A stretch of 53,845 bases of DNA from a virus, in the IMG/VR virus record IMGVR_UViG_3300033141_002656, positions 1 to 53,845 of that record; one strand, written 5' to 3'. The position numbers were made by a program, and so were the translations under genes. Positions 3,635-53,845 of the stretch are shown here, piece by piece. The notes beneath the pieces are model-generated. The model saw only the letters and a program-made list of their open reading frames with translations. It was not told the origin of the DNA and did no database searches. The stretch's first letter is position 1; each line of letters opens with the position of its first letter.

Positions 3635-3711
3635 AGTCAGTTCCTTTTGAATGGGTAATGGTGAATAGGTAGTCAGTGAATAGGTAACTAGTTAGTAGTA
3701 TGTATTTAGTT

Positions 3712-3735
3712 ATTATATAACTTGACATAATGTCA
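3712..3735 (-). promoter_or_regulatory. Likely promoter of the replication gene with overlapping dyad operator
   Basis: Read leftward there is a TATAAT -10 box (complement of 3712-3717). The near-perfect dyad TGACAT-A-ATGTCA (3723-3735) sits immediately upstream, where the -35/-10 spacer would be. The -35 box is poor. An initiator bound to this first iteron would block the promoter, the usual autoregulation of iteron plasmids. Confidence 0.45.
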
Positions 3736-3748
3736 CGTTTGAGGGGGG

Positions 3749-3757
3749 TGTGGATAA
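3749..3757 (-). promoter_or_regulatory. DnaA box (TGTGGATAA)
   Basis: Exact complement of the strong DnaA box TTATCCACA, located between iterons 1 and 2. Confidence 0.7.
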
Positions 3758-3763
3758 GTCCCA

Positions 3764-3775
3764 GTTTGACATAAT
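3764..3775 (+). repeat. Iteron copy 2 (TTTGACATAATG)
   Basis: This is the second of three direct repeats; it reads TTTGACATAATGGCA, a degenerate form of the same 13-bp dyad. It lies between the two DnaA boxes. Confidence 0.7.
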
Positions 3776-3787
3776 GGCAAACTGCAG

Positions 3788-3801
3788 TTTGACATAATGT
3801 C
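3788..3801 (+). repeat. Iteron copy 3 (TTTGACATAATGTC)
   Basis: This is the third direct repeat, 24 bases after copy 2 (copy 1 is 43 bases before copy 2). Spacings near multiples of about 22 bases would put bound protein on one face of the helix. Confidence 0.7.
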
Positions 3802-3826
3802 CCGTTAATGGGATTTCGGGGGGTAG

Positions 3827-3835
3827 TTATCCACA
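3827..3835 (+). promoter_or_regulatory. DnaA box (TTATCCACA)
   Basis: Exact match to the strong DnaA box consensus, 69 bases from the first box and in opposite orientation, just beyond iteron 3. Confidence 0.7.
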
Positions 3836-4076: not shown

Positions 4077-4403
4077 CTATTCAACGCCATACCGTGACTT
4101 GTACTTGTGCTGATTGTGTTTGCTGCAGAACCTGGGGATACCAGGCATCAGAGGCCACCAGCATTGAGCCTTGTCCTTACAGTTCTTGATGATGCAGGTA
4201 TGGCGATCACAGAATTCACCACCATTGACCACGGGATCATTGCAAAAATCATCCTTTGCTCTGACGTGTCTGGCCTTGCAACAACCGGTTCCATGCCATG
4301 TGAAATTGCTTGGTTTTATGTTGATCTCCCAATTGTGCTTTTTGAAATTTTTGCAAGCAGGCTGCCAACAACTCCAATTGTGCCTTCTGTTACATCCACA
4401 ATT
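4077..4403 (-). pseudogene. Cys/His-rich frame without a start codon, probable 3' part of a frameshifted gene
   Basis: This minus-strand frame is open from just after a TGA (4404-4406) to TAG at 4077. It encodes about 108 residues rich in paired Cys and His: CGCNRRHNWSCW, CKNFKKHNWE, CCKARH, CDRHTC, CSKHNQH. That looks like a multi-zinc protein. It has no ATG, GTG or TTG near its beginning. The gene at 4316-4552 overlaps it in the neighbouring frame. A one-base slip near 4400 would join the two into a single protein of about 158 residues. The cause could be a mutation, a sequencing error or recoding. The family is unknown to me. Confidence 0.4.
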
Positions 4404-4552
4404 TCACCCCGGCCATTGATGTAATCAATTAATTTTGCCTGTAAATTTTCGTAATAAATAGTGCTATCATGATTCCTTCTTTGCATGCGGAACAGAGCAT
4501 TCAGTATTCGGTGTGCCTGTTTTTTTCTTTTTTTTATTCGCCTCTTCTCCAT
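4316..4552 (-). CDS. Small basic protein, possibly the 5' part of the Cys/His-rich gene
   Basis: The protein has 78 residues, and AAGGA stands seven bases before its ATG. The N-terminus is very basic (MEKRRIKKRKKQ) and is followed by a helical stretch to about residue 50. Beyond the point where the overlapping Cys/His-rich frame opens, this frame becomes less convincing. The ATG overlaps the end of the upstream gene by 19 bases, as expected in a packed operon. Function unknown; a nucleic-acid role is suggested only by its charge. Confidence 0.55.
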   Translation of the reverse strand: MEKRRIKKRKKQAHRILNALFRMQRRNHDSTIYYENLQAKLIDYINGRGEIVDVTEGTIGVVGSLLAKISKSTIGRST

Positions 4553-4845
4553 TGATTGTTCCTTCTGTCATAGCGCCAATCCCCACTATCCCACTTGTCA
4601 GGAAATACCCGTTCAATTTTCCAGATCATTCTCAATCGCCACATTTTCAGACGGTCCATGCTGCGACAGCTTTTTGAAATGTTCTTTACTGTGTACGGCA
4701 ACTGCCAGTAATAGTCAGTGTTATACAACCACCTTTTTTTATATTCTTTTTCTAAGAGATAGCGGAAATACTCATTCCTTGGATTTTTAAAAAATCGCCC
4801 TCTCGAAGGCATATCTGATGTCCCCCATTTTTCAACACCAAACAA
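4534..4845 (-). CDS. Hypothetical protein rich in aromatic and basic residues
   Basis: A 103-residue product with unusually many Trp, Tyr and Arg residues (for example KKRWLYNTDYYWQL and GDWRYDRRNNQWRRGE). There is no signal peptide or membrane segment. It overlaps both neighbours by a few bases in a leftward operon. I do not recognise a family. Confidence 0.6.
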   Translation of the reverse strand: MFGVEKWGTSDMPSRGRFFKNPRNEYFRYLLEKEYKKRWLYNTDYYWQLPYTVKNISKSCRSMDRLKMWRLRMIWKIERVFPDKWDSGDWRYDRRNNQWRRGE

Positions 4846-8844: not shown

Positions 8845-9636
8845 TCAGCCCCAACGGCTGACTATCGATAAGCCCATTTCCTTGGCCTTGTCCTCATACC
8901 TCTTGGCCACCTCAGCCCAGTTGGCCGGCATGGGGCCCAGCTGAGTTAGTATGTCTGTGCGATCTTTGCAACCCACATCTGCCGTCTGCCGGAACGTAAT
9001 GAGGAACTCATCCTCAGGCCCCTTTGTCATGAACCCCATTGAGTTCACAATTCCGTCCAGATACTGGGCAGCCTTGGATCCGGCAAAGGTTGGGATCCAC
9101 CGGTCAACCTCAACCTTGATCCCATCAGCCTGGGTGATAGCCACAGCCTGGGTTCTGGTGTGACTGATGAACCGGACATTGGTGAGTCTCATCAGGGCCC
9201 CCAGCCATTCTCTCCATTCCCGGGTAACCTCTGACCAGGTCTTGCCAAAGTCATTCTCTGGGGGATAGGCAAGTCCCTTCCGCTTGCACACAGCATCCCG
9301 GGCCATGTTGTTGAGATTGTCAATGATATCAATGACCACCCCCTTATAGTCATACTTGCCGGCCTTGATATCATCGGCCACCTCTTTGATACCCTCTTTG
9401 AATCCGGACCTGATCTTGCCCTTGTCATCCATTTGGAACGGAACCCCCTCCCAGGCAACAATGTCAATGACTGTGGACTTGGTGAACTCTTGGCCGGGTT
9501 CGGTTGAAAAGAACAGGGCCTTGGGGTCCCCACTGCAGAACCTGGTTTTCCCCGCACCGGGAGGTCCAAACACCAGCAAAGTCAACTCATCAAACGGGGG
9601 GACAGGAAACTTTTCTGATCTCTTGGGAATTGGCAT
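8845..9636 (-). CDS. RecA-fold AAA ATPase, Sak4-like annealase/recombinase
   Basis: A 263-residue compact RecA-like NTPase. Walker A is GPPGAGKT (24-31), Walker B VVIDIID (100-106), and there is a sensor-like ISHTRTQAV segment. The size and the short core without extra domains fit the Sak4/AAA_24 phage group, which cooperates with SSB in single-strand annealing. The neighbours (SSB on one side, Cas4-like nuclease on the other) support this. GAGGTG lies five bases before the chosen ATG; an upstream in-frame ATG at 9663 lacks a ribosome site. Confidence 0.85.
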   Translation of the reverse strand: MPIPKRSEKFPVPPFDELTLLVFGPPGAGKTRFCSGDPKALFFSTEPGQEFTKSTVIDIVAWEGVPFQMDDKGKIRSGFKEGIKEVADDIKAGKYDYKGVVIDIIDNLNNMARDAVCKRKGLAYPPENDFGKTWSEVTREWREWLGALMRLTNVRFISHTRTQAVAITQADGIKVEVDRWIPTFAGSKAAQYLDGIVNSMGFMTKGPEDEFLITFRQTADVGCKDRTDILTQLGPMPANWAEVAKRYEDKAKEMGLSIVSRWG

Positions 9637-9672
9637 GTACCACCTCATCAATTGGTTCAACAAAAAATAGAA

Positions 9673-10575
9673 CTACCATATTTCACTTTTAAATCGTCCG
9701 CCGTCAAGGGGTTCTTTGTCATTACTCTGATACCTCTGGCCCAGGGCATCTGACCCAGTTGCACACAGAGCCAGGAATGGACACTCACCATATGGCCCAG
9801 CACAATTGGCAGTGTTCCTGGGCCAGTTCTCAAAGCTATGGATCTTGAACGCACTTTGGATAGCTATGTTGAGGTTGTATTTTTCAGACCGGTACCGGTC
9901 AATCTCTTGGGGGCTGTATGAGATCACACATTCACGATATAAGTCATCCATCTCATTGATATACTTTGTCATCATCCTTTCAGCAAACTGTGAGACTGTT
10001 TCTTTTTTGGTGACTCGGCTGGTAGTCTTTTTGGTTTCCCGATAGACAAAGCCACCGAAATGCATCCCGCTATCCACTGCCATGCAGGCATAGCTGAGCA
10101 ACTGGTCATCCACTCTGAGGACCCATTCCAGGTTCTCAGCAAACCGGCCACGGGTCTTGTCCTCAACAACCCACACATGGCCATCATCCTCAAACACGGC
10201 ATCAAAGTAAGCCACCTCATCCTGGTTCTCAACCTTGACTTCAGGGGCCCAGACACGCTTCCTGTCCGCTCCGAACCGGTGGGTATACCCATTGAGGTAG
10301 GCATTGAGCTTGGCTGTCTCGGCGTCAATTACGGCGTCCTCAAAGCCATTGGCTTGCAAACCGTCAAGCAAACATGCCTGACCCTGCCGGACGGCATCAG
10401 GAATATTCCCAACCTTCCGCCATTGTTCAAGGCCCATGTGAAATGCCCGGCCCATGAACAGGGCAGGACTCTTGATGGTCTTGGGCTCAACCCCGGCCAC
10501 ATACCTGAAAAAGACCTTACGCGGACAGGACTTGTACAGTGATCTCATCGATGTTGATAGTGCTGGAAGTTTCAT
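9673..10575 (-). CDS. Cas4/RecB-like PD-(D/E)XK exonuclease with Fe-S cluster
   Basis: A 300-residue nuclease. The RecB-type catalytic set is visible as H46, D125 (YFDAVFEDDG), E138 and K140 (VVEDKTRG), and Q158/Y162 (DQLLSY). One Cys near the N-terminus (C17, KSCPRK) and three near the C-terminus (C258, C265, C271) match the four-Cys iron-sulfur staple of Cas4 and AddB. It would resect DNA ends for annealing by the neighbouring ATPase and SSB. There is no CRISPR context, so a recombination role is preferred. The start is ATG 10575 with AAAGGA; the open frame further upstream overlaps the divergent gene and is rejected. Confidence 0.88.
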   Translation of the reverse strand: MKLPALSTSMRSLYKSCPRKVFFRYVAGVEPKTIKSPALFMGRAFHMGLEQWRKVGNIPDAVRQGQACLLDGLQANGFEDAVIDAETAKLNAYLNGYTHRFGADRKRVWAPEVKVENQDEVAYFDAVFEDDGHVWVVEDKTRGRFAENLEWVLRVDDQLLSYACMAVDSGMHFGGFVYRETKKTTSRVTKKETVSQFAERMMTKYINEMDDLYRECVISYSPQEIDRYRSEKYNLNIAIQSAFKIHSFENWPRNTANCAGPYGECPFLALCATGSDALGQRYQSNDKEPLDGGRFKSEIW

Positions 10576-10662
10576 TGGGCATCCTTTTTCTGAGGGGATA
10601 GACAAAAACCATTGTGCAATTATCACACACTTGGTAAAAAGGTAAAACAAAAAGGACAGCCC
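10576..10662. promoter_or_regulatory. Divergent intergenic region, likely promoters
   Basis: This 87-base gap separates the leftward exonuclease gene from the rightward RuvC-like gene, so promoters in both directions are expected. Leftward, TGTGATAAT resembles an extended -10 box. Rightward, no good -35/-10 pair is seen apart from A-rich DNA. Confidence 0.4.
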
Positions 10663-11193
10663 ATGAGAATTATTGGTATTGATTCTGGCAAGAATGGCGC
10701 GGCTGTGGGACTGGATACGGTCTCTGGCCATGGGACAACCTATCGTCTGAAGTATGACAAGACAGGAATCCTGATGGGCAGGGATCTGTTTGATTGGCTC
10801 AAAGCCCAGGATCCTCAGACAGTCCTGGTTGAGGCTGTCCGTGGCAGAGGTGGGCCAGACAGTCCCTGGGGAGCCACCCACAATTTCAGGTTCGGATGGT
10901 TCTATGGTCAGCTGATCCAGGTTCTTGACCTATGTCTGTTCCCATACCGCCGGGTTGAGCCCAAGGTCTGGCAACGGATGATCCATGAGGGGATTGGTGG
11001 TAAGCTCAAACCAAAGGACCGATCAATCATAGCGTACCGCCAGCTGTTCCCACATGACCCGTTGCCCAGGCATCCAAAGGCAAAAGGCCCACATGATGGG
11101 ACACTGGATGCTTTGCTCATTGCTCATTACGGGGTGGTTAGGTTGGCAGGCAATGAGGTTAAAAAATGGACATTCCCAGGGGGAAAATCATGA
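10663..11193 (+). CDS. RuvC-like Holliday junction resolvase
   Basis: A 176-residue RNase H-fold nuclease of typical RuvC length. Acidic catalytic residues are D7 (IIGIDSGKNG), E57 (VLVEAVRG) and D145/D149 (HDGTLDALLIA). It would resolve branched DNA before packaging. It is one of only two plus-strand genes and is transcribed away from the exonuclease gene. AAGGA lies six bases before the ATG. Confidence 0.87.
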   Translation: MRIIGIDSGKNGAAVGLDTVSGHGTTYRLKYDKTGILMGRDLFDWLKAQDPQTVLVEAVRGRGGPDSPWGATHNFRFGWFYGQLIQVLDLCLFPYRRVEPKVWQRMIHEGIGGKLKPKDRSIIAYRQLFPHDPLPRHPKAKGPHDGTLDALLIAHYGVVRLAGNEVKKWTFPGGKS

Positions 11194-45563: not shown

Positions 45564-46400
45564 TTACAACCCCATCAATCTTTTAAACGCTTCGGACACT
45601 TGCGCGGGAACAACCGCATTGCCCAAGGCTTTAATTCTGTCCACCCGGAATGGTAGCCCATCAACCACTCGACCCACGTCGGGTTCAACAGCCCACCAGC
45701 GCGAGTCGGCGTAGTCCGCGGCAATTCTTTTTTTGACTCTAATAAAGCGACGTGGCTCAATGGTTGACTGCATTGTGGTGTGCTGTATTTCCTCTTTGCC
45801 GATTTCCAATCCCTGGCGGTTGGGATTGGTAACATGACTTGCGCACTTAATTTCGGTTCGCCGCGGCTGTTCCATTTTCCTTTCTCTCTCTCTACCGCAT
45901 CGTCTGCTATTGGCGTTTGCCAATAAAAACCATCTTTCCCTCTTGTGCGGCGCTCCCACATCGTAAGCGGATAGCATACCCCACCGACAATCATACCGCA
46001 GCGAGGCCATCTCCCGTGCAACAATGTGCAGGTATTTGCGTATTCCAGGGACGTTTTCAAGGAATATGAATGTGGGTCTGATTTCTTCGGCCAAGCGCAT
46101 GATCTCGAAAAAAAGCCCGCTTCGCTCCGCTTCCAAGCCTTTTCGAGTGCCCGCACAGCTGAGATCCTGGCACGGGAATCCGCCGTAGACAATGTCGATT
46201 TGTCCTCGAAAATCTGAGATTGGAAATGTTCTGATATCGTCCCAGATAGGTGCAGTGGGTAATTGTCCATCTGCCATGCGAGAGAGAAGAACGGCACGAG
46301 CATATTCGTCGATTTCACAGTAGGCGACCGGTCGGGCCCACTGCCCCAGGGCAAGGGAGATTCCGCCGATTCCGCTAAATAGGTCCAGGCCATTTAACAT
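45564..46400 (-). CDS. C5 cytosine DNA methyltransferase
   Basis: A 278-residue Dcm-type enzyme. Motif I is DLFSGIGGISLAL (6-18), motif IV GFPCQDLS with catalytic C77, motif VI ENVPG (E115), motif VIII-like RERWFLLA, and motifs IX-X near the end (KALGNAVVPAQVSEAF). It would methylate cytosine to protect phage DNA from host restriction; no partner nuclease is seen, so it is an orphan. The sequence is richer in CpG and looks unlike neighbouring genes, suggesting separate acquisition. The target is unknown; the recognition region is short. Confidence 0.9.
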   Translation of the reverse strand: MLNGLDLFSGIGGISLALGQWARPVAYCEIDEYARAVLLSRMADGQLPTAPIWDDIRTFPISDFRGQIDIVYGGFPCQDLSCAGTRKGLEAERSGLFFEIMRLAEEIRPTFIFLENVPGIRKYLHIVAREMASLRYDCRWGMLSAYDVGAPHKRERWFLLANANSRRCGRERERKMEQPRRTEIKCASHVTNPNRQGLEIGKEEIQHTTMQSTIEPRRFIRVKKRIAADYADSRWWAVEPDVGRVVDGLPFRVDRIKALGNAVVPAQVSEAFKRLMGL

Positions 46401-49252: not shown

Positions 49253-50005
49253 CACACGCACACGCTTACATCTTACTTTTGTGATATCTCTCCCATAGAC
49301 AACAAAGTCTTCTGGCATAACTTCGCACTTTAAAACCTTCCCTTTGTTGTATAAAAGCGCTTGCTGTTTCGTCGGAGACAGGTGCAAACCTCCGCCGCAT
49401 TGACGATCTTGGTCATCGTCCCAATCAGGACATTCGACGAGTCCAGAATATTTAATTTTCCCCGTATAATAATCGGTCATGTCGTCTTTTACAGTTTTAT
49501 AAAGAATGACTCCGCCATTTGGCCCACGATCTGTGTAGATTCCAAGAAAATCATCTTTGCTATGGACGTGCTTTGTCGTTTTAATGGCAATAACATCAGC
49601 GTGAGAATCAAACTGTTTTTTTGCATCTTGAAAAACAACGATCGCTTTATTGTGGGCAACGATCTTCCCATTTGATGTAAATATTCGACAAAATGAATTT
49701 CCCCAGGCCACAACGCTGGAATTTTCCCAGGCCACAACGCTGGAATTTTCCCTGGCCACAACGCTGGAATTTTCCAAGGCCACAACGCTGGAATTTTCCC
49801 TGGCCACAACGCTGGAATTTTCCCTGGCCACAACGCTGGAATTTCCCAAGGCCACAACGCTGGAATTTTCCCTGGCCACAACGCTGGAATTTTCATACTT
49901 CTTTCTAAGAATTATATTTTTCGCAAAGATACGAAGCTCAGTAGATTCATCGCTTTCTTTATAACTGTCAATATCATTTTGAGATTTGATTTCTATAACT
50001 TTCAT
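49226..50005 (-). CDS. Protein with eight NSSVVA octapeptide repeats
   Basis: The product has 259 residues. After a 36-residue N-terminus come eight tandem copies of [EG]NSSVVA[RLW] (about 38-101). That repeat resembles the NA(T/R)VxA(Y/W)-type repeats of phage proteins, which are likely to form a small beta-solenoid. The C-terminal 130 residues form a globular domain (GIYTDRGPNGGVILYKTV, QCGGGLHLSPTKQQALLYN, PEDFVVYGRDITKVRCKRV). I have seen that combination in phage proteins of unknown function. The gene overlaps both neighbours by 4 bases or fewer. Confidence 0.65.
   Translation of the reverse strand: MKVIEIKSQNDIDSYKESDESTELRIFAKNIILRKKYENSSVVARENSSVVALGNSSVVARENSSVVARENSSVVALENSSVVARENSSVVAWENSSVVAWGNSFCRIFTSNGKIVAHNKAIVVFQDAKKQFDSHADVIAIKTTKHVHSKDDFLGIYTDRGPNGGVILYKTVKDDMTDYYTGKIKYSGLVECPDWDDDQDRQCGGGLHLSPTKQQALLYNKGKVLKCEVMPEDFVVYGRDITKVRCKRVRVLDAMGKWE
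49706..49893. repeat. Eight tandem 24-bp repeats
   Basis: Units begin every 24 bases from 49706 to 49874 with the core GGCCACAACGCTGGAATTTT; only the few bases around the variable Arg/Leu/Trp codon differ. The array stays in frame and encodes the octapeptide repeats. Slippage could change copy number. Confidence 0.95.
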
Positions 50006-53466: not shown

Positions 53467-53845
53467 TTATTTGACAAGAGACAACGGCAGGACCTGTCCT
53501 TCAGTGGTGCTCCGATTCATCACAACATCCCGTCCACACTCATCAAACCTACGCTTGTCTTTGAAATAGACGAACCAGACGTGACGGGCTATGTGATCCA
53601 CTCCCTTTTCCCTGGTCTTTTCAACCTCAAGCCGGATGAAATCCCCTTGCCTGTTGAGGTTCAGGTAATTGTCTGCATCCTGCAGGAACTGGCTGTATCC
53701 CTTTTGATTCCCAGAGTTCACCACTTTGTCCCGGTCGATCTTGTTGGGCTGCCACACCACAATCACATGCACATCATTAGCCCTTGCCAGGTCAATCAGT
53801 TCAGCATAGGCATTGAGCTTTTCACCATGGTTGTCCCGGGTGATG
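53467..53845 (-). CDS. Primase-helicase, C-terminal part (continuation from 1-2546)
   Basis: This is the end of the intein-containing primase-helicase. It includes the stretch after Walker B (VIVVWQPNKIDRD), the ring-helicase core (YSQFLQDADNYLNLNRQGDF) and the C-terminus (GQVLPLSLVK). The last 114 bases duplicate 1-114. It cannot be a separate gene because the frame is continuous with the larger part through the circular joint. Confidence 0.92.
   Translation of the reverse strand, partial: ITRDNHGEKLNAYAELIDLARANDVHVIVVWQPNKIDRDKVVNSGNQKGYSQFLQDADNYLNLNRQGDFIRLEVEKTREKGVDHIARHVWFVYFKDKRRFDECGRDVVMNRSTTEGQVLPLSLVK
53732..53845. repeat. Terminal direct repeat, right copy
   Basis: Identical to bases 1-114; it is the overlap that closes the circle. 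Confidence 0.95.

Follow-up and report, generated by a model that had tools for sequence, protein, structure and literature searches.

The lambda O protein binds, as dimers, to iterons that are 19-bp imperfect inverted repeats (PMC7466680), and the RepA_N initiators, among them RepA of plasmid pSK41 and RepA of the Vibrio cholerae satellite PLE, bind palindromic iterons (PMC5703833, PMC7145576). The lambda iterons are spaced by 20/24/23 bp, those of pSK41 are semi-palindromic and 23 bp apart, and both arrays lie inside the initiator gene. The Rep_3 iteron plasmids (F, P1, pSC101 and others) carry direct repeats, DnaA boxes and AT-rich DNA by the initiator gene. Low-copy plasmid origins typically combine iterons with DnaA boxes, and the P22-type modules of initiator plus helicase are another comparable system. 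In many uncultured phages neither an origin nor an initiator can be recognised.

We examined an IMG/VR virus record of 53,845 bases (the window) and conclude, with a probability of about 0.83, that positions 3661-3835 are the replication origin of this phage, with the neighbouring gene product P0001 as its predicted initiator, acting by the mechanism proposed below. The support comes from the elements of the site and their rarity, from geometry and synteny conserved among related loci, and from the constraint seen on the array between two closely related contigs, together with a predicted protein fold. In our best reading the site works like lambda ori or a RepA_N origin and is by sequence a member of neither family; P0001, again as best reading, is a new initiator family, absent from Pfam and PHROGs, encoded beside its own primase-helicase.

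An earlier note had described three TTGACATAATG direct repeats, two exact DnaA boxes in opposed orientation and an AT-rich stretch with repeats of its own, and all were present where it had placed them. In the reading direction of the gene (minus strand), a DnaA box comes first, followed by iterons 3 and 2, the other DnaA box, iteron 1, the AT-rich tract and the initiator gene. The array (3722-3802) is located ahead of the start codon (3634), outside the gene. The 53,845 bases contain three copies of TTGACATAATG and no more, all within the array (3722, 3766 and 3789). Beyond being direct repeats, the iterons are palindromic: iteron 1 (TTGACATAATGTCA, 3722-3735, centre 3729) holds the full palindrome TGACAT-A-ATGTCA at 3723-3735, and iteron 2 (TTGACATAATGGCA, 3766-3779, centre 3773) is the core of a 23-nt inverted repeat at 3762-3784. 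With iteron 3 (TTGACATAATGTCC, 3789-3802) centred at 3796, the centre spacings are 44 and 23 bp; the gap of 44 bp between iterons 1 and 2 is twice 22 bp, with the inner DnaA box (3749-3757, minus strand, centre 3753) near its middle. This box and the opposed one at 3827-3835 (plus strand) are perfect copies of TTATCCACA and the only two in 53.8 kb, where 0.53 would be expected by chance per window. The AT-rich tract (3661-3721), the likely DNA unwinding element, has two copies of a 15-bp repeat, GTGAATAGGTA(GTC/ACT)A, one at 3661 and the other at 3676, as well as a TATAAT in the minus-strand sense; by nearest-neighbour energies no 60-mer in the window is less stable than that at 3664-3723 (GC 0.25). 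The TTGACA within the repeats was considered as a set of plus-strand promoters and dropped, because there was neither a paired -10 nor a plus-strand gene behind it.

Palindromic iterons spaced at 20-24 bp beside an AT-rich tract, with the initiator gene adjoining a gene of helicase function, are shared with lambda, and the spacing and partial symmetry of the pSK41 iterons are likewise close. The window differs from both in that its iterons lie upstream of the gene, and from lambda also in having DnaA boxes. Direct repeats, DnaA boxes and AT-rich DNA by an initiator gene are shared with the Rep_3 plasmids; however, the window iterons are palindromic, a Pfam scan of P0001 found no Rep_3 domain and there were no plasmid relatives, and the window repeats resemble the sites of lambda O or RepA_N initiators, which are palindromic, more closely than Rep_3 iterons.

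The P0001 gene (2543-3634, minus strand) is an open reading frame of 363 codons, predicted to encode an N-terminal winged helix (residues ~1-115), a linker, and a C-terminal helical domain (~164-346). An AlphaFold2 model built from six sequences had a mean pLDDT of 76 and gave the N-terminal winged helix, for which the top VIA-align rows were RepA_N initiators (4pt7, Z 8.4, rmsd 6.7, 110 aligned; 4pql, Z 8.3, rmsd 4.2, 102 aligned; 5kbj, Z 7.5, rmsd 4.2, 102 aligned). RepA_N initiators, with their winged-helix dimer fold of the pSK41/pTZ2162 type, are the closest structural match, and since unrelated winged helices scored near Z 7, i.e., within about 1 Z, the fold alone does not settle the family of P0001. 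Winged helices are common and are typical of regulators. The C-terminal domain modelled alone reached pLDDT 81 and returned no useful PDB match, which is not proof of a new fold. By sequence, P0001 had no match in Pfam or PHROG, and DNA and protein searches of phage and plasmid collections returned nothing (72,556 plasmids without a match); the initiator of contig L017, a relative described below, also had no match in the phage collection, and a PDB sequence search gave chance matches only. The RepA_N family PF06970 gave no hit to the initiator at E up to 10 and none in the Pfam scans, and pSK41 RepA did not align with it; Phage_rep_O was absent from the Pfam scans of eight initiator proteins, and hhalign of the initiator with lambda O gave no alignment. 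A KPSHFAKHFNAI motif resembling KPNFAGWANDI of lambda O was set aside, as the resemblance was unsupported by hhalign.

Relatives were reached through the Sak4 gene, and then through alignments of the initiator and the primase-helicase; neither P0001 nor the SF2 helicase, when used on its own to scan viral contigs, brought up any, a viral scan with the C-terminal domain added no further lineage, and pattern-based scans of a collection of genomes from 84,980 species found no homologue or prophage relative. Initiator homologues were present in seven IMG/VR contigs (L004, L005, L006, L017, L019, L022 and L023), which make six lineages besides the window when the near-identical pair L017/L019 is counted once, or seven with the window. 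In all seven contigs the initiator gene lies directly upstream of the primase-helicase gene. Identity to P0001 is 26% for the L004 initiator and 37% for that of L023. Mean pairwise identity is 22% in the N-terminal domain vs 35% in the C-terminal domain; between the window and L022 the two domains are 30 and 51% identical, and between the window and L023, 22 and 50%. This faster N-terminal divergence fits a winged helix that reads the iterons, a pattern as in PLE RepA, whose DNA-binding domain covaries with the origin and whose C-terminus is conserved (PMC8263062). Contig L005 has tandem initiator genes, a 161-aa N-terminal-only copy (9218-9703) lying directly upstream of, and overlapping, the full-length gene (9685-10776); the short copy is possibly a regulator or a competitor for the iterons.

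We scored the upstream regions for two similar palindromic 15/16-mers placed 18-27 bp apart; the spacing and length limits were set after the first loci had been inspected, against which the whole-locus ranking and positive controls guard only partly. In the window, L004, L005, L006, L017, L019 and L022, none of 300 dinucleotide shuffles scored as high as the real DNA preceding the initiator gene, and in a ranking over the whole locus the array took first place in six of the seven, the window included, and second place in L017. Applied to known origins, the score put the pSK41 RepA iterons first in the 46-kb plasmid and found the lambda O iterons in lambda, and therefore it could help to find the origins of other phages. 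Palindromes 20-25 bp apart precede the initiator gene in the window and in five of the six related lineages. The sixth, L023, has no clear array (6/300 shuffles reach its score); at 4210-4652 it has instead an inverted repeat GGTGCGTTGATTT/AAATCAACGTACC and TTAGATAC repeats. The repeat sequences themselves are mutually unrelated: TGACATNATGTCA in the window, CTGGCGCACTATGCGCCAG in L004, TTGGCAAGTTGCCAA in L005, CTAGATNNATCTAG in L006, CAGCCCAAATGGGCTG in L017/L019 and TAYTACTWCGTARTA in L022. In the 921 bases compared between L017 and L019, the 82-nt array (-128 to -47) exceeds every other identical run in length, those of the coding part included, where the intergenic DNA is otherwise roughly 80% identical and the adjoining coding sequence ~92%. 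A strongly AT-rich flank is missing from L006, and L022 has its unstable tract on the far side.

Three palindromes about 23 bp apart also describe the operator arrays of phages, and it could be argued that these serve as operators only, bound by the winged-helix protein or by some other regulator, of phage or host, to control the initiator/primase-helicase operon, with replication starting elsewhere. The position of the array upstream of a gene, with a TATAAT just on the gene side of iteron 1, and the winged helix typical of regulators would suit such a role; yet it would leave unexplained the two DnaA boxes confined to the site and recurring in L004, as well as the adjoining most unstable 60-mer. 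Moreover, the array showed no paired -35/-10 promoter, no repressor gene was among the matches listed, and the distance from array to gene varies from ~25 to ~580 bp across the loci, that in L005 being too far for simple promoter control. We consider operators without an origin unlikely; an operator function in addition to the origin function is likely.

The DnaA boxes bear on a further alternative, that the site is driven by DnaA as are origins of the host-chromosome type, with the iterons secondary. Two perfect boxes do adjoin the AT-rich tract, and contig L004 also has exactly two, opposed and upstream of its iterons between the SF2 helicase and initiator genes, the sole ones in 20.8 kb. 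There are, however, just two boxes, no DnaA gene was found, and five of the seven lineages have the same gene module with no box there even when one mismatch was allowed, whereas the palindromic array is kept; DnaA thus appears to be a helper specific to some lineages. We regard a DnaA-driven origin as the least probable of the readings weighed here, with hardly any weight left to it.

For an iteron-type origin with P0001 as initiator, we propose that P0001 dimers would bind the palindromic iterons through the N-terminal winged helix and, with host DnaA presumably on the two boxes, would bend the DNA or put it under stress and thereby melt the AT-rich tract of 60 bp alongside. The C-terminal domain may then recruit or load the primase-helicase encoded directly downstream. 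The bound initiator would probably also repress its own transcription, as the array is just upstream of its gene. A more specific version can be drawn, of which we are doubtful: that this is a new family combining a fast-evolving winged helix with a C-terminal primase-helicase loader of new fold, that a fixed geometry of ~22 bp is kept through complete turnover of the iterons, and that a DnaA box occupies one iteron slot (3729, 3753, 3773, 3796), placing DnaA in the register of the initiator. Six of the seven lineages found supply initiator/origin pairs with completely different iterons, and so one can directly test what specificity code would link a winged helix to its iteron, and how the primase-helicase takes over from the initiator.

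The partner gene is read from the minus strand; its first part (1-2546) encodes a zinc finger, Toprim and ATPase with an intein in Walker A (Pfam Toprim_2, Hom_end_hint, Hom_end) and continues over the contig end to 53467, the end of the gene lying at 53467-53731, and 53732-53845 repeating 1-114. This perfect 114-bp terminal repeat (1-114 = 53732-53845) falls inside the gene, and the map is therefore circular or permuted; read as linear, the repeat duplicates 38 codons in frame. Joined without the duplicate, the gene has 936 codons without a stop and aligns with its relatives on both sides of the junction. The primase-helicases of the relatives match PHROG DNA primase/helicase (L004, E 2.5e-47). 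A zinc finger, Toprim and a DnaB/RecA-type helicase are all combined in a single protein, as in T7 gp4-like primase-helicases, whereas here the protein is encoded beside an iteron-type initiator and has the Walker A intein; the lambda partner, by comparison, is the loader P and not a fused primase-helicase. The intein, with a LAGLIDADG homing endonuclease, spans residues ~384-717 exactly in Walker A (GMGK|T), and the homologues in the related contigs are without it.

Genes for an SF2 helicase, a Sak4-like annealing protein, an exonuclease and a Holliday junction resolvase are near the initiator gene. When 47 other proteins of the window were scanned against Pfam and PHROG, none of the matches listed was to a partition, integrase or repressor family, nor was a DNA polymerase gene recognised among them. 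These data bear on the earlier designation of the site as a theta plasmid origin, and on the implied maintenance of the phage as a plasmid. An origin with iterons, DnaA boxes and an adjoining initiator was upheld by the comparison of homologous loci; the "plasmid-type/theta" part was not, in view of the missing partition, integrase and repressor families, the primase-helicase partner and the lack of a plasmid Rep match. Although the combination of iterons and DnaA boxes is as in low-copy plasmid origins and the record is circular or permuted by its 114-bp terminal repeat, the absence of matches in 72,556 plasmids and of homologues in the pattern-based scans of 84,980 species makes a phage-plasmid maintenance origin very unlikely. 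Sequence alone does not reveal the mode of replication, theta or other. An inflection of GC skew at 3.7 kb, which the earlier note had put forward as a check, was absent; all but five of the 1-kb bins were zero or negative, and the detrended cumulative skew gave a weak and unconvincing minimum at 2.2 kb (block-permutation p ~0.045 for the range). Skew is uninformative here because nearly all genes are on one strand.

The sole clear plus-strand gene of the window (10612-11193) is the one resembling Holliday junction resolvases, and its homologue in the related contigs is likewise opposite to the replication genes. A C5 cytosine DNA methylase gene (45564-46400, minus strand) is near the terminase and portal genes. 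A gene whose product is weakly similar to RIIB lysis-inhibitor families has, at 49695-49894 in its coding sequence, a 24-bp unit in eight copies, with a higher-order repeat of 72 bp.
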